A stretch of 64,000 bases of DNA from Kocuria rosea subsp. polaris (GTDB lineage Bacteria > Actinomycetota > Actinomycetes > Actinomycetales > Micrococcaceae): NCBI GenBank assembly GCA_023896275.1, contig MLDA01000010.1:1-64000 (forward strand), read 5' to 3'. The position numbers were made by a program, and so were the translations under genes. This document shows, piece by piece, positions 14,617 to 55,030 of the stretch. The notes under the pieces were generated by a model. The model saw only the letters and a program-made list of their open reading frames with translations. It was not told the origin of the DNA and did not search any database. Positions within the stretch are counted from its first letter, which is position 1. The number at the start of each line of letters is the position of its first letter.

Positions 14617-16524
<1,908 letters not shown>

Positions 16525-43685: not shown

Positions 43686-44972
43686 TTAACGCTTGGACGC
43701 GCGGTAGCCGGCGTTCTTCGCTGCTGCCGCCGTCGTGAAGCACTCCTCCGGCTTGGTCCTGCTGTAGTAGGCGCCGCCGGGCACGTGGTAGATCCCCGAA
43801 TCGGCGTTGCCCTTGACCGGGTACCCCTTCGGGCAGTTGAACGAACCGGTCCCGGCGACGCGCGACGGCTTCGCCCCCGCCTTGATCGTCAGCGACTGCT
43901 TCGCCGACGTCGTATAAGTCTTGGACCACGTCGTCTTGGTGACCTGCTTGGAGGTGGTCACGGTCTTGACGAGCGACTTCGACGGGTAGAGGACTGGAGA
44001 CGCCTTGGCTCCAACCTTGGCCTGCAGAGGAGTCTCGTCCTCCCAGTTGTCCTCCCACAGGGCGAAGCCGGTCAGGCCCGACTCGTCGTTGAGCGCGGTC
44101 TGGGGAAACGACAGGAACTCGGTGGCATACGTTCCGTCGAACCCACCCGTGCAATTCAGGTAAACCGGGACGAAGTCCGCCTTGATGAGCGAGCCGTCCT
44201 CTTCCGACTCGAAGACGGCGCGCTCCGCCTTGCCGACACGATCCACCGTGCAATTCATCTTGATCGCGCGGTTCGGGCCCGCGACGGTGGACTTGCTCGT
44301 GCTCTTCTCCGTGCTGGTCTTTGTCACCGGGACCTTGTACTTAACCGTGGTGGTGACGCTGTACTTGCCGGCCTTCAGTGCGGCCGCCGACTTGTTGGTG
44401 ACGAGGGTCTTGGACCCCTGCTTCACCGTCACGCTCTTGGACACCAGCTTGGCGCCCTTGCTGACCGTGACGTTCGGCTTGATCGTCGCCTTCTTGCCAT
44501 AGGGCGCGGTCTTGCTGGCGATCTTCTTGATTGCGACGGCGGTCCGGACCTTGAGCGTCTGGCTCTTGGTGGACTTCTTGGTCGCCGAGTAGGTCTTCTT
44601 GCCGTCCTTGACGGTGTAGGTGCGGTACGTGGCCGTCGTCGTCACCGCGTAGGTGCCGGCCTTGAGCGAAGCGCTCTTGGCCTTGGAGGCGACGGTCTTG
44701 CCGCCCTTCTTGATCGTGAACGTCGCGGACGAGAGTTCGGTCTGCCCGGAGAGCTTGATCGACGGGGTCACCTTGGCCGATCCGCCGACGGCGACGAGCG
44801 GGCTGGCGATCGTCCCGATGGTGAGCTTGGACGACGTCGTCGTGGCCGCGGGCGCCTGCACGGCGGCCGTGGTCGGCAGCGGAGCGGCGGTGGCCGGCGC
44901 CGCGGCTACGCCACCCATGAGCAGCGAAGCGGCGGCGACGGACGCGCACCAGCGCATGACAAGTGTTTTCAT
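43686..44972 (-). CDS. Secreted Lys/Thr-rich repeat protein with C-terminal sunset-type domain
   Basis: The product is 428 aa. The signal peptide is MKTLVMRWCASVAAASLLMGG...ATAA. Two related Ig-like repeats follow (AVGGSAKVTPSIKLSG...LKAGTYAVTTTATY and APYGKKATIKPNVTVSKG...LKAGKYSVTTTVKY), then a domain with two Cys (MNCTVD, YLNCTGG). The C-terminal motif (SFNCPKGYPVKGNADSG, YHVPGGAYYSRTKPEECF, GYRASKR) matches what databases call a sunset domain. The ATG at 44972 has GGGGGA upstream. It is probably a cell-surface protein of unknown role. Confidence 0.75.
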   Translation of the reverse strand: MKTLVMRWCASVAAASLLMGGVAAAPATAAPLPTTAAVQAPAATTTSSKLTIGTIASPLVAVGGSAKVTPSIKLSGQTELSSATFTIKKGGKTVASKAKSASLKAGTYAVTTTATYRTYTVKDGKKTYSATKKSTKSQTLKVRTAVAIKKIASKTAPYGKKATIKPNVTVSKGAKLVSKSVTVKQGSKTLVTNKSAAALKAGKYSVTTTVKYKVPVTKTSTEKSTSKSTVAGPNRAIKMNCTVDRVGKAERAVFESEEDGSLIKADFVPVYLNCTGGFDGTYATEFLSFPQTALNDESGLTGFALWEDNWEDETPLQAKVGAKASPVLYPSKSLVKTVTTSKQVTKTTWSKTYTTSAKQSLTIKAGAKPSRVAGTGSFNCPKGYPVKGNADSGIYHVPGGAYYSRTKPEECFTTAAAAKNAGYRASKR

Positions 44973-45115
44973 GATTCCCCCAACTAAAGCCGGATGCAGA
45001 GCGCATCGCGGTTTGAACGAGAGAATCATAACCCCAGGTGCGCGCAAAAGTGACGGGCGAGACACAACAAGTTTTATTCGCCGATCAACGGTGGCGGGAG
45101 AAGCGCCGCGGGGTG

Positions 45116-46620: not shown

Positions 46621-46673
46621 GGACCCACAGTAACGCTCCCGCACCCCGGGCCCGGCCTTCGCGGACCGACACT

Positions 46674-46702
46674 TTGACTATGAGAATGATTCTCATTAGT
46701 GT
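46674..46702 (+). promoter_or_regulatory. Metallophore operon promoter with Fur/Zur-family operator in the spacer
   Basis: A -35 TTGACT (46674-46679) and a -10 TAGTGT (46697-46702) are separated by exactly 17 nt. Those 17 nt (46680-46696) are the perfect palindrome ATGAGAAT-G-ATTCTCAT. It has the 7-1-7 Fur-family form TGAxAATxATTxTCA, closer to actinobacterial Zur boxes than to the DtxR/IdeR box. Repressor binding here would block RNA polymerase completely. Transcription should start near 46709, about 70 nt before the first gene. Confidence 0.78.
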
Positions 46703-46780
46703 CTAGCAAGTGTTGGCCGCAGGTGCCCCACGACGGCTGAGTGCCGCAGCCCTGGCCACCGAGAATGGAGCAACCGAATA

Positions 46781-47803
46781 ATGAGAAGTCTCAAGCCCTG
46801 GGCAGCCCTCATGCCCGCTTTGGTTCTGGCCGCCGCGACCGGATGTGGTGCGCCAGCCGACGCCGGCAGCAACCCCGCGGATGACGCGGCGGAGCCGATC
46901 ACCGTGGACAGCTGCGGTCGGGAGGTTGTGTTCGACGCACCGCCGGAGCAGGTCCTGGCGATCGGTTCGGAGGCGCCGGCGCTGCTGGTCGCGGCCGGAG
47001 CCGGCGACAAGGTGACGCACTACGCCGGGAGCCTGGAGGTGCCGTTCGACGCTGAGACGCAAGCCGTGGTCGAGGGTGCCGAACGGGTCACCGAGGACTC
47101 GCACGACGTCTCGTCCGAGATGATCCTCAGCTCGGGAGTCGACGTCGTCATCGGCACCGACATCGGGGCAGGCGTCGACATCGACACCCTCGCCACCCGC
47201 CTGGACGAGGCCGGAATACAACTGCTGACGGTGAGCGGCTACTGCGCGGGCATCGAGGGGCGCTCCACGGACGGCGTGAGCGGGTTCGACCTGATCTACC
47301 GGGACGTGGAGACCTACGGCGAAATCTTCGGGACCGAGCAGGTGGCCACGGGCGCCATCGAGGACATGCAGGACCGCGTCACGGCGGCGGCGGCGGAGCT
47401 CGCGGACGAGGTCTCCGACCGGAGCGCGGCCCCCTTGTACGTGCCGGCCGGTGGCACCCTGGGGTCGTACGGCGGGCAGTCGCTCGTGTCCGAGCAGATG
47501 ACCTTGCTGGGCCTGGAGAACGTCTTCGCGGACGTGCCGAAGCGCTACTTCGAGCCGTCCACGGAGGAACTCGTCAGCAGCGATCCCGACCTGATCTTCG
47601 CGATGTACCTGCCCACCGGTTCGTCGACGCTTGAATCCGACGAGGACGTGGTGAACGAGCTGCGCGATCGGCCCGAACTGGAGGGGCTGACGGCGGTCGA
47701 CGACGACGCGGCGGTGGTACCGCTGAATTACTTCTACACCTCCCCCGGCCCGCTGGCGATCGACGGGCTTGAACTGATCGCCGAGCGCCTGGCCAACTCG
47801 TGA
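46781..47803 (+). CDS. Metal-chelate ABC transporter binding lipoprotein (FecB/BtuF type)
   Basis: The product is 340 aa. It is a lipoprotein (MRSLKPWAALMPALVLAAATGC, Cys22) with a class III periplasmic-binding fold: REVVFDAPPEQVLAIGSEAPALLVAAGAGDKV, then VDVVIGTD, and EELVSSDPDLIFAM in the second lobe. It should capture the metal-loaded metallophore outside the cell and pass it to the FecCD-type permease encoded four genes downstream. It is the first gene after the Fur-family operator; the Shine-Dalgarno is GGAG at a long spacing. The stop overlaps the racemase start by 4 nt. Confidence 0.88.
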   Translation: MRSLKPWAALMPALVLAAATGCGAPADAGSNPADDAAEPITVDSCGREVVFDAPPEQVLAIGSEAPALLVAAGAGDKVTHYAGSLEVPFDAETQAVVEGAERVTEDSHDVSSEMILSSGVDVVIGTDIGAGVDIDTLATRLDEAGIQLLTVSGYCAGIEGRSTDGVSGFDLIYRDVETYGEIFGTEQVATGAIEDMQDRVTAAAAELADEVSDRSAAPLYVPAGGTLGSYGGQSLVSEQMTLLGLENVFADVPKRYFEPSTEELVSSDPDLIFAMYLPTGSSTLESDEDVVNELRDRPELEGLTAVDDDAAVVPLNYFYTSPGPLAIDGLELIAERLANS

Positions 47804-48729
47804 GGCAACTAGGAGAGCTGCGCCGGCGGGGGCGCATCGACGAGCACCGGCGCGCGCCCGGCGCACCCGCCCGGAGACGGCCGGGCCGGGCGGCGCGGGG
47901 CACGACGGAGGTCGACTTCGTCAAGCTGAGTCCGACGCGGAACATGACGCTGCTGGTCACCAGCCGGCATCCCGTCCGGGAGTACACGTCTATCGCGACG
48001 CAGCTCCTCTCGACCGGCCACGTACACGCCGAGCAGGTCGGCTTCGTGCGGACGCCCACGTCGCCGGGGGCACAGGTGCGCTTGCACATGGCCGGCGACG
48101 AGTTCTGCGGCAACGCCTGCCTGGCGCTGGCCGCGCTCAAGGCGGCGGAGCAGGGCCTGGTCCGCGGTGAGGCGACCAACGTCGTCGTGCAGGCATCGGG
48201 CGCGGACGCTCTCGTGAACTGCCGCGTCGAGCGCCGCGGGGCCGGCTACGAGTGCGAGCTCGAGATGCCACCGCCGCAGCGCGTGGAGCCCTACTCGTTC
48301 CCGGGCGCAGGGACCCACCGGTCTGCGATGGTCCGGTACGCGGACGCGGCGCACCTCGTCGTCGAATGCGACCGGAACGACCCCCTGATGAGGGAGCGCG
48401 CGCTGCGGCTCGCGGACCACCTCGGAAGGACCGAGGGGGTGCCCGTCGTCGGGGTGATGCTCTTCGACCCCGCGAGCCACCATCTGGATCCCCTCATCAA
48501 CGTGCCGGCGCTGGACAGCACGGTCTGGGAGCGCAGCTGCGCGTCCGGAACCGCGTCGATCGGCGCCCACCTGGCCGCAACCTCGAAGGCCTCCGTGTCA
48601 GCGAGCGTGCGGCAACCCGGCGGCACCATGCACGTGAGGGCCGGCTACGACTCCGAAGGACTCACCACAGTGCACGTCGCGGGGCATGTCCGCGTCGTGG
48701 CAGAAGGGACCGCATATGTCCACGACTGA
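47800..48729 (+). CDS. cntK: CntK-type histidine racemase (DapF-like epimerase)
   Basis: The product is 309 aa. The epimerase fold begins near residue 38 (FVKLSPTRNMTLLVTS). Two Cys motifs, GDEFCGNA (Cys103) and SCASGTASIG (Cys247), are the acid-base pair; their 144-residue spacing equals that of Cys72 and Cys216 as I recall them in Staphylococcus aureus CntK. EQVGF, MPPPQRVEP and VRQPGG also match CntK rather than DapF, and there is no GNGxR motif. It would convert L- to D-histidine, the first step of staphylopine-type synthesis. The GTG start overlaps the upstream stop; the first 37 residues are Arg-rich and have no counterpart in CntK. Confidence 0.88.
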   Translation: MRQLGELRRRGRIDEHRRAPGAPARRRPGRAARGTTEVDFVKLSPTRNMTLLVTSRHPVREYTSIATQLLSTGHVHAEQVGFVRTPTSPGAQVRLHMAGDEFCGNACLALAALKAAEQGLVRGEATNVVVQASGADALVNCRVERRGAGYECELEMPPPQRVEPYSFPGAGTHRSAMVRYADAAHLVVECDRNDPLMRERALRLADHLGRTEGVPVVGVMLFDPASHHLDPLINVPALDSTVWERSCASGTASIGAHLAATSKASVSASVRQPGGTMHVRAGYDSEGLTTVHVAGHVRVVAEGTAYVHD

Positions 48730-49555
48730 ACTATCGTCCGGAACGCCGGCGACGCCCGCCACCGCGAGCGCCATGCTGGAGAGCCTGCGGGACTACAGGC
48801 GGCGCTTCGCCGCGGCCGCGGACGGGTACGACGCGTCGACCGAGCGCGCCGCCGACCTCGAACAGCTCATGGGTGACTTCTCCGCTTTCGTGACCGACGA
48901 GCGCAACGAGACCCCCTTCGCCGAACTCACGGACGTCGGGGAGCTGGTGGCCGATTTGCGGACCCAGTCCGCGCGCTGCGCCGCCGTGATGGAGAAGTAC
49001 CGTGCGCTGCGCCTGCTCGAGGGCCGCAGCGGATCCGTCGGGTACTTCGCCAACGTCGAATCGTGTATCCAGGAAGAGTTCGGGGCCGTCGCGCCGACCG
49101 CGGCGTCGCGCGTGCTGCTCGTCGGGTCGGGCTCGTTCCCGATGACGCTGCTCAACGTCGCCGAGCGCACCGGCGCCGCGGCCGTCGGCGTCGACATCGA
49201 CGCCGAGGCCGTCGATCTGGGCCGTCGGGTCGTCACCCTCCTGGGCGGTGGGTTCGACATCGCACTCGAAAACGTCCCGGCGGAAGAACTCGACTTCACG
49301 TCGAACGCCACCCACATCGTCTTCAGCTCGACGGTCCCGGTGAAGTACGACATCCTGCACCGGCTGCACTCGGTCACCCGGGACGACGTCGTCGTCGCCA
49401 TGCGCTTCGGCGACGGGCTGAAATCGCTGTTCAACTACCCGATGCAAGACGTCGACCCCGCGCGCTGGCGCCTGCTCGAGACGGTGCGCCGGCCCGGCCA
49501 GGTCTTCGACATCGCGCTGTACGCCAAACACCCCGCCGAAAGAGAGGCTGAGTAG
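48716..49555 (+). CDS. cntL: CntL-type nicotianamine synthase-like aminobutanoyltransferase
   Basis: The product is 279 aa, close to S. aureus CntL. A helical N-terminal part (LEQLMGDFSAFV) precedes the Rossmann SAM site (SRVLLVGSGSFPMTLLNVAE and GVDIDAEAVDLGRRV) and THIVFSSTVPVKYDILH, as in the nicotianamine synthase family. CntL moves the aminobutanoyl group of SAM onto the amino group of D-histidine. The ATG at 48716 has AGAAGGG upstream and lies 14 nt inside the end of cntK. The next gene begins 3 nt after its stop. Confidence 0.9.
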   Translation: MSTTELSSGTPATPATASAMLESLRDYRRRFAAAADGYDASTERAADLEQLMGDFSAFVTDERNETPFAELTDVGELVADLRTQSARCAAVMEKYRALRLLEGRSGSVGYFANVESCIQEEFGAVAPTAASRVLLVGSGSFPMTLLNVAERTGAAAVGVDIDAEAVDLGRRVVTLLGGGFDIALENVPAEELDFTSNATHIVFSSTVPVKYDILHRLHSVTRDDVVVAMRFGDGLKSLFNYPMQDVDPARWRLLETVRRPGQVFDIALYAKHPAEREAE

Positions 49556-49558
49556 CCC

Positions 49559-50854
49559 ATGAGTGACCTCGGGAACGTCCTGATCGCCGGGACCGGTCCG
49601 ACGGCGGTGCAGACGGCCGTGCTGATGGGGCGGCTCGGAGGAGCGGTCGGGATCGCCGGCCGCACCTCGGACCGCTCGGCGTCGTTCTTTGCCGCCCTGG
49701 CCGCGGGCGACGGCCTCGTGCGCGCCGACGTGCAGAACGAGACGCACCGTGCCCTGGCCGGCGAGCGCCGGATCGAGCAGTGGTTCCGCGGGTACCCGAC
49801 CGTCTCCGGCGCGTGGGACACCCTGATCCTCACCGTGACCGCGGACGCGTACGTCCCGGTGCTGCGGCAGCTGGCCCCAGACGTCCTCGCGCGCGTCCAG
49901 CGCATCGTGCTGATGTCGCCGACGCTCGGCTCCGGCCACCTCGTCCGCGAGTACGCGAGCGAGGCGGGGGTCGACCCCGAGGTGATCAGCTTCTCGAGCT
50001 ACCTCGGCGACACTCGCTGGCCGGGCGGCGCCCCGGGCGCCTCCGTCCTGACGGCGGGCCTCAAGCGCCGGATCTACGCGGGGTCGACGCGGGCCTCCTC
50101 ACCCGCGCTCGAGCGACTGCGCACCCTGTACGGGTCGGTGGGGACCGCCGTCGACATCCTCGGTCTGCCCGTGGAGGCGGAGACGCGGAACATCTCGCTG
50201 TACGTGCATCCCCCGCTGTTCATGAACGACGTCACCCTGCGCGCCGTGTTCGGCGCGTCCGGCCCCACGAAGTACGTCTACAAGCTCTTCCCCGAAGGCC
50301 CCGTCACGCCGTCGCTGATCCGCACGATGGTTGCGCAGTGGCGGGAACTGACGGCCGTCGCCGTCGCCCTGGGCGGCACCGGCGTCAACCTGCTCGAGTT
50401 CATGCTGGCGGACAGCTACCCCGTCCGCCCGGAGAGCATCAGCCCGGCCGACGTGGCCGCGTTCGAGCAGCTGCCCACGACCCACCAGGAGTATCTCGTC
50501 TACGTGCGCTACGCATCGCTGCTCATCGATCCGTTCTCGGAACCGGACGCCGACGGGAGGTACTTCGACTTCTCGGCCATCCCCATCCGGTCGATCTTCC
50601 GCAACGACGCCGGGCAGTGGGATGTGCCCCGGATGCCGAAGGAGGACTACTACCGCACGAAGATCATTCAAGGCGTCGCCCGGCACCTGGCTGTGCCGTG
50701 CCCGACGATCGACACGCTGTTGGCGTCCTACGAGGGTGAGCTGGAGCGGACGACGACGGCGCTCGCCGGCCAGTCCGTCTCCGCGGCTTTCGCGGTCCAG
50801 GACTTCGACGAGGACCTTGGCATGATCTGCGCCGGGATCGCGAGGGCAGCATGA
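49559..50854 (+). CDS. cntM: CntM-type opine metallophore dehydrogenase (staphylopine/pseudopaline synthase family)
   Basis: The product is 431 aa, the length of S. aureus CntM. The dinucleotide site [15 protein letters not shown] is followed by GRTSDRS, where Arg35 may select NADPH. Family blocks include [58 protein letters not shown] and [13 protein letters not shown]. It reductively joins a 2-oxoacid to the CntL product. Asp151 in YLGDTRW lies where, as I recall, S. aureus CntM has Asp150 and the alpha-ketoglutarate-using Pseudomonas enzyme has Ala, so pyruvate is the likelier substrate. The stop overlaps the exporter start by 4 nt. Confidence 0.9.
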
Positions 50855-52077
50855 GCCACGTCGACGTAGCCACCACCGAGGAGATGCCTAGCGAACGGCG
50901 GATCATCGCCGCAGTCTGGCCGACCCTGCTGGCGTCGGCCGTGGGCCTGCTGCCGTTCACCCTGTTGACCGCGTTCCTCGTACCGATCTCCGATGCCGCG
51001 GGCGCGGAGTACGCCGAGGTGGGGACCCTGCGCGGGCTCGCCGGGATCGGCGCGGTGCTCACCGGCGTCGCACTGGCCCCCTTGATCGGCCGCATCGCCC
51101 CCGGAAAGGTCGCCGCCGCCGCGCTGGTCCTGCTCGGCGTGGCCGCCGTCGTCGGAACCAACGCCTGGGTTCCCGCCCTGGCGGCGTTCTGCCTGCTCAC
51201 GGGCGTGTCCAACGCGATGCTGTACCCGGCGCTGTCCGCGGCCGCGGCTGACCGTTTCGGGTCCGGTCCGGCGGCCGGCCGCGCCGCGACCCTCGTCATG
51301 ACGTCGCAGACCCTGGCGTCAACGCTGGGGGCGCCACTCCTCGTCTTGCCGACCCTGCTGTGGGGCTGGCAGGGCAATCTCGTCGCAATCGCCGTCGTAT
51401 CCCTGGCGCTGGCGCCGCTGCTGGCCCGCTACGGCCGCGAGGATCGCGCCGACGCGCCAGCCGCGCAGCGCGTCGGCTACCTCGCCGCGTTCCGGAAACT
51501 CGCGGGCGTCCCGGGCGCCCGCGCCCTGTTGCTGGTCTCGTTCGGTCGGGCCGGCGCGCTCATGGGGCACCTGGCGTTCCTGGCGCCGCTCTACGCGGAC
51601 CGGTTCGCGCTGAGCCCGGGCATGTTCGCCTTCGTCTGGTCCCTCAGCGGCGGCGCGTTCTTCATCGGTCACCTCGTGTCCGGCCGGTTGCTCAACGCCG
51701 ACGATTCCGACCGGCGGATCCATCGCGTCATGTCGATCTGCCTCGTGAGCGCCCTGGTGGCGCTGTGCGGCGTGTACTTCGCCCCGGTACTGCCGCTGGC
51801 GTTGCTCTGCACGGCAGTCCTGTCGGCCAGCCACGCGGTCGTCGCCGCCGCGGTCATGAGCCTGCTCGTGCGGCGTTGCGCCGAGGTCCGCGGGACGGCG
51901 CTGAGCCTGAACGCTGCCGGCATGAGCTTGGGCCTGTTCCTCGGCGCGGCGGCCGCCGGCGCCGGCCTGACCTGGGCGGGCTATCCGGCGGCAGCGGCGA
52001 TCCTCGGCGGATTCACGCTCCTTGCCCTGGTCGCCGCGCTGACCTTCCGCCCCACCGCACAGAGGCTTCCAGGATGA
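50851..52077 (+). CDS. MFS exporter of the metallophore (CntE-like)
   Basis: The product is 408 aa with twelve predicted hydrophobic helices. MFS-type loops include [20 protein letters not shown], between helices 2 and 3, and [17 protein letters not shown] in the second half. Position alone, directly after cntM and overlapping it by 4 nt, indicates export of the finished metallophore, the role of CntE in S. aureus. Its stop overlaps the permease start by 4 nt. Confidence 0.83.
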
Positions 52078-53195
52078 CCATCACCAAGTCCACTCCCCAC
52101 AATCACCGCGCCGAGCGTTCCGAGGCGCCGCTCGCCTTCTCCGACGACGACCTCGATCACGCCCGCCGCCGCCGTCACACCACGCTCTGGGTCCTCGGGC
52201 TGGCCGGCGGGCTCCTCGTCACGCTAATCGTGGCCGTGGGCCTCGGCCCGTCCTCCATTCCGGCGGGCACCGTGCTCCAGATCCTCCGCCAGCACTTCTT
52301 CGGCGTGCCGCAGGAGGCCGACTGGACCTCGGCCGAGGAGTCGATTGTCCTCCTGCTGCGGGGCCCGCGGGTGCTGCTCGGCGCCGCGGTCGGGGCCGGC
52401 CTGGCGATCGCCGGCGTCGCCCTGCAGGCGCTGACGCGCAACATCCTGGCCGAACCGTACCTGCTGGGCGTCACCTCGGGAGCCTCGACGCTGTCGGCCG
52501 CGTCGATCCTGTTCGGGGTCAGCGCCGGCATCGGGTCGTCCTCGCTCGCCGGCAGCGCGTTCGTCGGTGCGCTCGCGGCGGGCGTGGCGGTTTTCCTGCT
52601 CGCCCGGGTCGGATCGCACATGACCTCGACCCGGCTCGTTCTGGCCGGCGTCTCGGTCGGTTACGTCCTGCACGCCCTCACCTCGCTGTTGATCTTCGCC
52701 TCCGACGACCCCAACGCGGGCCGCTCCGTGCTCTTCTGGACTCTCGGGTCGCTGACGCTCGCGACGGGTCAATCCGTCCTGCTCACGTGGGTGGCCGTGC
52801 TGACGACGACGGCGGTGCTGCTGTTCTGGTCCCGCCCGTTGGACGCGCTGGCCATCGGAGACAACACCGCGCAGACGCTGGGGATCTCACCGACCCGCCT
52901 CCGCGCGGCGGTCATGGTGGTGATCGCGTTGTGCGTCGGGGCCCTGGTCGCGGCCTCCGGCGGCATCGGCTTCGTTGGGCTGATCATCCCGCACGTCGCC
53001 CGGCTCTGCGTCGGGACCGCGCACCGCCGGCTGATACCGGTGGCCGCGCTGCTCGGCGCGATCTTCCTGGTCTGGGCCGACGTGCTTGCGCGTGTCACCC
53101 TCGCCCCGCAGGAGCTTCCGCTGGGCATCGTCACGGCCCTGCTCGGGGCCCCGTTGCTGTTCCTGCTCGTCCGCCGACTCAACCCGGCCCAGTAA
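52074..53195 (+). CDS. FecCD-type ABC permease for metal chelate uptake
   Basis: The product is 373 aa. A 40-residue cytosolic N-terminus is followed by about ten helices of the BtuC/FecCD family: LLRGPRVLLGAAVGAGLAIAGVALQALTRN, LAEPYLLGVTSGAS, LVLAGVSVGYVLHAL, GGIGFVGLIIPHVAR and QELPLGIVTALLGAP. A single permease gene implies a homodimer, as with BtuC. With the upstream lipoprotein and downstream ATPase it would reimport the metal-loaded metallophore. Confidence 0.9.
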   Translation: MTITKSTPHNHRAERSEAPLAFSDDDLDHARRRRHTTLWVLGLAGGLLVTLIVAVGLGPSSIPAGTVLQILRQHFFGVPQEADWTSAEESIVLLLRGPRVLLGAAVGAGLAIAGVALQALTRNILAEPYLLGVTSGASTLSAASILFGVSAGIGSSSLAGSAFVGALAAGVAVFLLARVGSHMTSTRLVLAGVSVGYVLHALTSLLIFASDDPNAGRSVLFWTLGSLTLATGQSVLLTWVAVLTTTAVLLFWSRPLDALAIGDNTAQTLGISPTRLRAAVMVVIALCVGALVAASGGIGFVGLIIPHVARLCVGTAHRRLIPVAALLGAIFLVWADVLARVTLAPQELPLGIVTALLGAPLLFLLVRRLNPAQ

Positions 53196-53223
53196 GACTC
53201 AACCGCCCAAGGGGGCTCAGTTC

Positions 53224-54063
53224 ATGATTTCAGCGCACGACGTTTCCGTCGGCTACGACGACAAGCTGGTGGTCGAGGGGGTCGGGTTGCATGCCGGGCC
53301 CGGCGAGGTGGTCGGCCTGATCGGGCCGAACGGCAGCGGCAAGAGCACGTTCCTGCGGACCCTGTACGCGGCCCTGCGCCCGCGAGCGGGCCTCGTCATG
53401 ATCGACGACGAGCCGATCGGCTCCCTCCGTGGAACCGACCTGGCCCGGCGAGTCGCCGTCGTCGCACAGGAGACGCCGACGGACCTGCCCGTCACGGTCG
53501 CGGACATGGTGCTGCTCGGCCGCGCCCCGCACCGCAGGGCCCTCGCCGCCTTCAACCGCGAGGACCACCAGGCGGTGGCGGCCGCATTGACCCGGGTCGG
53601 CGCGCGGGAGCTCGCCGACCGCCGGTTCGCCACGCTCTCGGGCGGCGAGAAGCAGCGCGTGCTCGTGGCCCGGACGCTGGCGCAGCAGGCCGACCACCTC
53701 CTCCTCGACGAGCCGACCAACCACCTGGATATCCGCTACCAGCACGAGCTGCTGCGGATGGTCGGGCAGCTCGGGGTGACCACCGTCGTCGTGCTGCACG
53801 ACCTCAACCTCGCCGCCCGCTACTGCACGAAGCTCGTCATGCTCGAGCACGGCCGGGCCGTGGCCGCCGGCACCCCCGACGAGGTCCTCCTCCCCGACGC
53901 GCTGCACCGGGTCTACGGGATCCACGTGGAGCGGGTGATGGTGGGCGGCTGCCTGCAGCTGATCTTCAGCACGGTCGACGAACACGCCGCGCGGGCGGCG
54001 CACCCGCCCGCGGCTTGGGCGGACGCTGCGGCCGTCCCGGTGGCCCAGTACGATCCCGCGTGA
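53224..54063 (+). CDS. FecE/BtuD-type ABC ATPase for metal chelate uptake
   Basis: The product is 279 aa. Walker A GPNGSGKST, signature LSGGEKQRVLVA, Walker B LLLDEPTNHLD and switch His (VVLHDLNLA) are all intact, with the FecE-type C-terminus HRVYGIHVERV. An Ala-rich tail of about 25 residues follows. The ATG at 53224 has AAGGGGG upstream, 28 nt after the permease. It is the last gene of the metallophore operon. No strong terminator hairpin is visible in the 265 bp that follow. Confidence 0.9.
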   Translation: MISAHDVSVGYDDKLVVEGVGLHAGPGEVVGLIGPNGSGKSTFLRTLYAALRPRAGLVMIDDEPIGSLRGTDLARRVAVVAQETPTDLPVTVADMVLLGRAPHRRALAAFNREDHQAVAAALTRVGARELADRRFATLSGGEKQRVLVARTLAQQADHLLLDEPTNHLDIRYQHELLRMVGQLGVTTVVVLHDLNLAARYCTKLVMLEHGRAVAAGTPDEVLLPDALHRVYGIHVERVMVGGCLQLIFSTVDEHAARAAHPPAAWADAAAVPVAQYDPA

Positions 54064-54328: not shown

Positions 54329-55030
54329 ATGACGCCGCATCCGCCTCGCACGGGGCACTCCCCCGCTGCCGCCTACGACGCCTTTGCCGAGGCCTACACG
54401 GCGGAGAACGACTCGAGCCTTCTGAACGAGTACTACAACCGGCCCGCCATCCGTCGCTTACTCGGCGACGTGGCCGGCCGGCGTGTGCTCGACGCCGGAT
54501 GCGGCTCGGGCCCCACGCTCGCCGACCTCGTCGACGGCGAGGTCCACCTCAGCGAGGTGCTCACGAGGGACGGCAACGTCCTGCTCCCGGAGTTCCTGGC
54601 CTCGCACGACGTCGTGGTCAACTGCACGCTCCAGGACGTCGCGGCGCCGCTGACCTACCTGCGGACCGCGGACCTGGCGGGTTTCGCTGCCGGCAGCCTG
54701 ATCATCGACGTCTCGTGCGACGAGGGCATGGGCTTCGAATGGGCAAAGCCCACCGGGTTCGACGATCCGATGTTCACGGTCGGCAACGGGGTTAACTACT
54801 ACGCGGTGGACCACAGCCCGTCCTACCTGTGGAACGCGGCCACGTGGGAGATCAGCGAGGCAGTGCTCCCGTTCCTGCGCACCGTCATGGACGGGGAATC
54901 CGCGTGGGCGGAGAACCTGACCCTCTCCCGGGCGATCGAGATCCACGACGGCGTGATCCGAAACCCCAGCATCCTGAGCTTCCAGGGGCGCGAGCCGGAC
55001 TACCCACACCCTCGCGCGGCCACTGCCTGA
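54329..55030 (+). CDS. Chimeric protein: methyltransferase N-terminus fused to alanine dehydrogenase/CEOS-like C-terminus
   Basis: The product is 233 aa. Residues 1 to about 66 are the start of a class I SAM methyltransferase (AAYDAFAEAYTAEND, VLDAGCGSGPTLADL), ending just after motif I. From about residue 68 (DGEVHLSEVLTRDGNVLLPEF) the sequence is the C-terminal part of an alanine dehydrogenase-like N5-(carboxyethyl)ornithine synthase (VVVNCTLQDVAAPLTYLRT, LIIDVSCDEGMGFEWAKP, YAVDHSPSYLWNAATWEISE, SILSFQGREPDYPH). Neither enzyme is complete. The join is in frame without stops and looks like the scar of a deletion. A TAATAT/TATTTT -10 lies just upstream. It is probably non-functional or newly functional. 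Confidence 0.7.
   Translation: MTPHPPRTGHSPAAAYDAFAEAYTAENDSSLLNEYYNRPAIRRLLGDVAGRRVLDAGCGSGPTLADLVDGEVHLSEVLTRDGNVLLPEFLASHDVVVNCTLQDVAAPLTYLRTADLAGFAAGSLIIDVSCDEGMGFEWAKPTGFDDPMFTVGNGVNYYAVDHSPSYLWNAATWEISEAVLPFLRTVMDGESAWAENLTLSRAIEIHDGVIRNPSILSFQGREPDYPHPRAATA

Follow-up and report, generated by a model that had tools for sequence, protein, structure and literature searches.

We describe a seven-gene operon on the forward strand of a 64,000-nucleotide stretch of the Kocuria rosea subsp. polaris genome (contig MLDA01000010.1, positions 1 to 64,000; hereafter the window). The most likely role of the seven genes is to produce a staphylopine-like, zinc-binding molecule under zinc shortage, send it out of the cell and take it up again, and we hold with high confidence that this is a Zur-controlled opine-zincophore operon whose molecule is staphylopine itself or a very similar compound. 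The operon is real, looks intact and is of a known kind, in a branch that has been little studied. The pathway itself is not new; what is new is the evidence on its regulation, acquisition and loss. On this reading, staphylopine-type zinc scavenging would extend to Micrococcaceae actinobacteria, with a different class of importer and a testable Zur operator.

In the mechanism that we propose, scarcity of zinc would take Zur off a palindrome at 46680-46696 and allow the operon to be transcribed. CntK would provide D-histidine, CntL would transfer an aminobutanoyl group from S-adenosylmethionine onto it, and CntM would condense the product of CntL reductively with pyruvate; the outcome would be staphylopine or a very closely related compound. 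A transporter of the major facilitator superfamily (MFS) would then export the metallophore, and a binding lipoprotein, a FecCD-type permease and an ATPase would bring it back loaded with metal, replacing the Opp-type importer of Staphylococcus. Gene content, protein families, the operator and its counterparts in the genome, synteny, descent and the insertion are observed directly; the chemistry, zinc as the principal metal, the direction of transport and binding by Zur are inferred.

Layout of the operon

The genes encode, in order, the substrate-binding lipoprotein of a FecCD-type importer, a predicted binder of the metal-metallophore complex (46781..47803; PF01497), a CntK-type histidine racemase (47800..48729), a CntL-type, nicotianamine-synthase-like D-histidine 2-aminobutanoyltransferase (48716..49555), a CntM-type opine dehydrogenase (49559..50854), an MFS transporter that is the predicted metallophore exporter (50851..52077; PF07690, 92.6 bits), the importer permease (52074..53195; PF01032, 285 bits) and the importer ATPase (53224..54063; PF00005, for which the profile query began at 53227). 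An original prediction, made from this DNA without database searches, had described seven genes on one strand, with five of the six junctions being overlaps or a 3-nt gap, and this holds in every particular: all seven are on the plus strand with open frames, and the junctions are overlaps of 4, 14, 4 and 4 nt and gaps of 3 nt (between the end of cntL and cntM) and 28 nt. The families it had assigned to the seven proteins are likewise those found with Pfam, NCBIfam and solved structures. The G+C content at third codon positions (GC3) is 0.89-0.94 for the seven genes, and the export and import genes lie no more than six open reading frames (ORFs) from cntM, according to the ORF list and Pfam. 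A promoter and terminator scan gave nothing useful.

Biosynthetic enzymes and the predicted product

CntM scores 609.9 bits against PF10100 (cut-off 25), and its best solved match is the staphylopine dehydrogenase 6h31 (E 5.5e-107). CntL reaches 269.3 bits against NF033601 (E 3e-80) and matches the D-histidine 2-aminobutanoyltransferase structure 7c9m at E 4.8e-66, with 7c9m and 7c7m both at about 5e-66; the Pfam nicotianamine synthase model stays under its cut-off (20.7 of 27.1). CntK has no Pfam match and scores 199.7 bits against NF033599 (E 6.3e-59). Its first match among the solved structures, which include 6jis, is 6l4l (E 1.3e-36), deposited as a diaminopimelate epimerase, followed by the histidine racemase 9cr6 (E 2.1e-20), and the structure alignments span EFCGNA and SC.SGTASIG. 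The matching chains that carry the diaminopimelate epimerase label (6l4l) we take to be Staphylococcus aureus CntK. Because the scores of all three enzymes are of this size, the family matches are not due to chance.

The original prediction had proposed searches and trees of CntK, CntL and CntM as a check on its reading. These place the three proteins inside the expected families, though below the NCBIfam equivalog cut-offs for staphylopine enzymes (NF033599, 199.7 of 300; NF033601, 269.3 of 350; and NF033600 for CntM, 469 of 675). By sequence, the three can be considered family members, and functional equivalence would go beyond their scores.

Product rules have been set out in the available text of a survey of such clusters (Morey and Kehl-Fie 2020, PMC7438024): a histidine racemase implies D-histidine, and aspartate at position 150 of the S. 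aureus enzyme (SaCntM) implies pyruvate. In the window's CntM, Asp151 lies opposite SaCntM Asp150, counted on the printed alignment. Across the 87-row CntM alignment, this oxoacid-selectivity residue is aspartate in 14 of the 14 rows of the window's clade and in 69 of the 70 Bacillota rows, the remaining one having alanine. A racemase together with aspartate at the pyruvate position points to a predicted product of the D-histidine and pyruvate type, staphylopine or something very near it. In a second actinobacterial group the residue is aspartate in two of three rows, and the third, from Actinokineospora spheciospongiae (L022), has glycine, possibly reflecting a different oxoacid.

A Zur-type operator and the zinc regulon of the genome

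Upstream of the first gene lies a Zur-type operator, the perfect 8+1+8 palindrome ATGAGAATGATTCTCAT (46680..46696, plus strand), whose 15-base core starts 100 nt upstream of that gene's start codon. The original prediction began at 46671 and so included this inverted repeat without mentioning it. When up to two mismatches to TGARAATSATTYTCA are allowed, the operator is the sole match in the window; 100 shuffled versions gave a mean of 0.04 matches, and three of them had at least one. Genome-wide, the same search yields 12 sites, against none for the reversed pattern. One of the twelve is exact (the operator of the operon), three have one mismatch and eight have two.

Of the three one-mismatch sites, C15:8809 lies between a divergent gene for an AztA-like ATPase (217 bits, NCBIfam cut-off 220) and genes for AztB (339, cut-off 280) fused to an AztD-like part (65, cut-off 400) and for AztC (365, cut-off 350). 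In the same cluster, C15:5649 precedes a Pyr_redox_3 oxidoreductase gene. The third, C22:59588, falls within the longest frame of a gene for a CobW_C/ZigA-like GTPase, at its 5' end (87 of 600 bits for ZigA). Two-mismatch sites precede the SBF-family transporter gene of the Azt cluster (C15:4451) and a pair of ATPase genes, the first of which has its frame 24 nt further on (C11:154045). Zur targets named for actinobacteria in the available text of a Zur review (PMC6103462) include genes for zinc importers, for COG0523 GTPases and for metallophores.

The Azt region on contig C15 (L099, 4451-11928), with Zur-type sites around the AztA-like ATPase, the fused AztB-AztD-like gene, AztC and the SBF-family transporter, is probably a core zinc-starvation locus. 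It also holds a flavoprotein, what by eye looks like a second transporter of similar kind, and a small histidine-rich frame.

The genome also encodes a predicted Zur. This Fur-family protein, on contig C47, adjoins a PF00950 metal permease gene (145 bits), and its best solved relatives are the metal uptake regulators 3mwm and 7vo0 and the zinc regulator FurB 2o03 (148-167 bits), against 85 bits for the best ferric regulator structure. We take 3mwm and 7vo0 to be Streptomyces Zur. The best NCBIfam model for the protein is a ferric-regulator model (83 of 146 bits), ahead of the Zur model (55 of 167), both below cut-off.

The operator is conserved within Micrococcaceae. All 13 importer-bearing loci of the family match it at 13 or more of the 15 bases, 93-100 nt before the start of the binding-protein gene, and the Nocardioides locus also matches at 13 of 15. 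In Pseudonocardia alaniniphila (L016), a gene for a ZigA-like cobW-family GTPase (14774-15940; 485 bits, cut-off 600) adjoins the zincophore operon on the opposite strand.

Relatives, descent and rarity

A search of the genome collection with CntM gave 149 confirmed relatives, of which the best 80 were used (10 actinobacterial and 70 from Bacillota). With the window and six further Micrococcaceae, these make up the 87 rows of a CntM tree built with a quick method, SH-aLRT support only and a midpoint root; long branches (L025, L161) and biased composition were flagged in it. The window falls within an actinobacterial clade of 14 rows (support 99). The gene order binding protein, cntK, cntL, cntM, MFS, FecCD, ATPase is found in all 13 other members, ten of them Micrococcaceae and the others Pseudonocardia, Austwickia and Nocardioides; one Micrococcaceae cntM (G075) is frameshifted, and L163 in the synteny set is a second copy of L025. 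With the binding-protein gene first and no methyltransferase recognised, these loci appear to be a new clade. Taken together, the profile, solved-structure, synteny and tree results support the original prediction's view that this Micrococcaceae operon would make, export and import a metallophore.

The CntM tree joins the window with the other Micrococcaceae (94). In the tree of the four transporter proteins, its companions are Pseudonocardia, Austwickia, Nocardioides and G629, and the remaining Micrococcaceae stand separately (100/100). The two trees disagree in part and so do not single out a donor of the operon.

The operon is rare. CntM scores above cut-off in four of 198 relatives, in 11 of 295 genomes of the family (three of 32 genera) and in one of 396 genomes of the phylum, each count including the window's own genome, which is the single phylum hit; the phylum also gave one 19-bit fragment below cut-off. 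Within the genus, one of five genomes has CntM. The operon locus is present in five of 15 and seven of 18 genomes of two other genera, where the other matches are short pieces, most of them in the ATPase part. The binding protein is found at 62% identity or more in 13 of the 295 family genomes, once per genome and always at the operon locus (four more matches are at 34-38%), and cntM is in one open frame in ten of these 13. Eleven plasmid records carry a CntM relative, all less than 60% identical and none actinobacterial by name.

No eighth conserved gene emerged: around 14 seven-gene loci, the top 14 groups of neighbouring genes listed are all families shared within or between genera g22 and g23. 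Nor was a methyltransferase or other tailoring gene recognised beside the operon, mostly by eye and with few neighbours profiled; by profile, the next same-strand genes are Macro in L018 and Pyr_redox in L157.

Insertion of the operon

The arrival of the operon can be traced as a mappable replacement. In two sister species, G003 and G001, what follows the left flank is a gene for an AlaDH/PNT-family dehydrogenase. Its frame is uninterrupted in G003; in G001 it encodes 403 residues and the two Pfam halves are present. About 7.9 kb of the window stands in place of about 0.8 kb of G003. The operon has taken the place of the 5' part of the dehydrogenase gene (somewhat over half); the sister species have the gene at full length. 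The left junction lies at 46628..46660, where DNA similarity stops at 46639 for G003 and at 46627 for G001. The right junction, at 54529..54540, is within a few bases common to both sides; near 54530, a methyltransferase fragment runs across these shared bases in frame into the remainder of the dehydrogenase. The outcome is a hybrid ORF (54329..55030, plus strand) of about 67 methyltransferase residues and about 165 C-terminal dehydrogenase residues. The methyltransferase fragment has 81% DNA identity over 176 bases to G127, from another family of the order.

We considered whether this hybrid ORF is a remnant of the extra methyltransferase of actinomycete clusters and rejected the idea, its second half being the C-terminus of the dehydrogenase. 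Its first half resembles the G127 methyltransferase, which by eye has no cnt gene within the surrounding 10 kb, so the ORF is a product of the junction.

In G002 and G004, the left-flank gene is present and the dehydrogenase is found as distant copies (33%) only. Seven of the ten other Micrococcaceae cntKLM loci lie near FtsK-like and/or RNase J-like genes (named by eye), and the window's copy is therefore at a different site. Near the operon, on the minus strand at 43686-45065 of the window, is a gene for a secreted-looking protein of 459 residues rich in lysine, serine and threonine; about 400 bases of this gene are skipped when the DNA is aligned to G003, and G001 is without the region.

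Import-only relatives

Two genomes of the family, G111 and G640, have no CntM profile match and no genome-wide DNA match to the cntKLM part at E 1e-10. Both keep the genes for the binding protein, MFS transporter, FecCD permease and ATPase, in stop-free aligned stretches, together with the Zur-type operator (L183, 5728-10020, in G111; L184, on the reverse strand, in G640). In G111, the stop of the binding-protein gene overlaps the MFS start. G640 is about 97% identical in DNA to the producer G652 on either side of the gap, and by eye a small remnant of the cntK start and the cntM end is left at its joint. These genomes look like natural non-producers in which the synthesis genes were lost by deletion and the importer was retained.

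In a tree of the four transporter proteins (16 rows), G111 pairs with the producer G076 and G640 with the producer G652, each with support 100/99. Given these separate pairings and the two changes needed, two losses are the simplest reading. Between G111 and G076, the ratio of nonsynonymous to synonymous rates (dN/dS, pairwise NG86) is 0.16 for the binding protein, 0.14 for the MFS transporter, 0.14 for FecCD and 0.09 for the ATPase, with dS of 0.33-0.43. Constraint on the transporter has held since these two split, and the loss of cntKLM may postdate the split. We claim selection for G111 alone, the G640-G652 pair being too recent to judge (dS 0.01-0.12, ratios 0.10-0.31). In a third genome, Paeniglutamicibacter terrestris (G075), cntM is in two frames and is one base shorter than its nearest relative in a short single-base run (L038, about 11026); this may be a sequencing error, and we have not counted it as a firm loss.

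That the opine zincophores here are public goods, with independently evolved non-producers in two genera living on the metallophore of producers such as the window's species, seems to us an evenly balanced proposition. Exploitation of metallophores has been described, with siderophores as the example, in the available text of a 2026 primer (PMC13142891). The retention of the MFS transporter in G111 and G640 is not simply explained by piracy; our guess is that the pump has been kept to recycle or unload imported metallophore. As far as its available text goes, the 2020 survey (PMC7438024) found its clusters through CntM and would therefore miss loci that hold the importer alone. Metallophore cheating could be tested naturally on the import-only relatives, among which G640 comes with a nearly identical producer, G652.

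A second candidate importer

The two-mismatch site at C11:154045 heads a further operon of the window's genome (L238, 3046-9079), in which it is followed by genes for two ATPases, an MFS transporter, an Opp5/NikA-like binding lipoprotein and a fused permease. Its best NCBIfam names are nickel transporter parts, below cut-off, and its matches to the CntA, CntC and CntD models are weak (51 of 800, 70 of 440 and 70 of 380 bits). Compared with the 80 CntM loci, the ATPases are 25-36% identical among the matches listed, the binding protein matches seven loci and the permease ten at 27-31% identity, and the MFS transporter has no match. The operon is possibly a second importer of a metal or metallophore; it has no bearing on what the window's enzymes make.

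Alternative explanations

Several observations weigh against the zincophore reading. The scores of CntK, CntL and CntM below the equivalog cut-offs leave their exact substrates unsecured. The operator is weak in Pseudonocardia (L016, 12 of 15), and no match was found in Austwickia (L018) or in any of the three clusters of the second actinobacterial type. Nor is the motif alone proof of zinc control, for no zinc gene is evident beside five of the eight two-mismatch sites (one on C3, C11:71737, two on C20 and one on C23; the stretches read cover all of the eight but the one on C33). The NCBIfam models that best match the importer are named as subunits of a 'putative F420-0 ABC transporter', with scores below cut-off, and the retention of the transporter and MFS genes without cntKLM in two genomes also allows another substrate. 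Finally, with a second candidate importer present, re-import need not rest on the window's importer alone.

The alternative that deserves most weight, although we consider it a minority possibility, is that the same pathway ends in a product other than staphylopine, through another oxoacid or amino acid or a later modification. The scores under the equivalog cut-offs and an importer class unlike that of known staphylopine users would fit this, as would the bulkier products proposed for FecCD-type actinomycete clusters in the available text of PMC7438024; set against it are the presence of CntK, the aspartate at the oxoacid position throughout the clade and the lack of any recognisable tailoring gene within the operon or next to it on the mostly visual inspection above. 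We think it improbable that iron, nickel or cobalt, and not zinc, is the main metal handled by the operon: the names of FecCD-type importers refer to iron chelates or B12, and nicotianamine-like metallophores bind several divalent metals (PMC13142891, available text), but the operator is common to zinc transporter and zinc-GTPase-like genes and conserved at every importer-bearing Micrococcaceae locus.

A silent or decaying acquisition, gained horizontally and unused, would suit a replacement with a hybrid ORF at its edge that is absent from all four other genomes of the genus searched, yet seven open frames, their GC3 of 0.89-0.94 and a perfect operator make us doubt it strongly. We give very little credence to the idea that the ABC transporter and MFS genes have their role in a different pathway (F420-0 transport, for instance) and merely adjoin cntKLM. 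The NCBIfam names and the import-only genomes speak for it, but the F420-0 models TIGR03868, TIGR03869 and TIGR03873 are far under cut-off (74 of 392, 279 of 437 and 262 of 372 bits), the genes overlap, gene order and operator are conserved, and the close binding-protein matches in the family are all at the operon locus. Automatic annotation of operons of this kind may mislabel zincophore importers as F420-0 transporters.

Comparison with known systems

The original prediction had presented the operon as one with no known characterised counterpart in Micrococcaceae. In this it agrees with the literature matches listed, which include no characterised Micrococcaceae opine metallophore, and no opine-metallophore non-producer either, subscription journals being scarcely covered; as to wider novelty it needs correcting, as actinobacterial clusters had already been surveyed (PMC7438024, available text). 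In the text available, PMC10628120 reports an opine-like cluster in a Paenibacillus and not in that study's Arthrobacter.

According to its available text, the survey in PMC7438024 covers CntM clusters of actinobacteria that also have a predicted histidine racemase, an MFS exporter and a FecCD importer, and these share with the window operon the racemase, nicotianamine-synthase-like enzyme, opine dehydrogenase, MFS transporter and FecCD importer. Compared by text, they differ in that FecCD-only actinomycetes are linked there to an extra methyltransferase, whereas in the window none is recognised and the binding-protein gene comes first. The Pseudonocardiaceae loci L021, L022 and L028 are like the window in their cntK-cntL-cntM-MFS order and FecCD-type importer. 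Unlike it, they run cntK, cntL, cntM, MFS, binding protein, FecCD, ATPase, with a binding protein 25-27% and a permease 44-46% identical to the window's; a methyltransferase gene is next in two of the three, they have no operator match, and their CntM proteins form a separate branch.

With bacillopaline (Paenibacillus), pseudopaline (Pseudomonas) and yersinopine (Yersinia), the window shares the core of a nicotianamine-synthase-like enzyme and an opine dehydrogenase. According to the available text of PMC7438024, the bacillopaline and pseudopaline systems have alanine (2-oxoglutarate) at the selectivity position, unlike the window's aspartate, and the pseudopaline and yersinopine systems are without the racemase that the window operon has.

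The S. aureus staphylopine system (cntKLM, cntABCDF, cntE) resembles the window operon in its CntK, CntL and CntM relatives and in the aspartate at the pyruvate position, and both have an MFS exporter (PMC7438024, available text). The window operon departs from it in gene order, in having a Zur-type operator before the binding-protein gene, and in its importer, which by Pfam is a PF01497/PF01032/PF00005 system of the FecCD type rather than the Opp-type CntABCDF.

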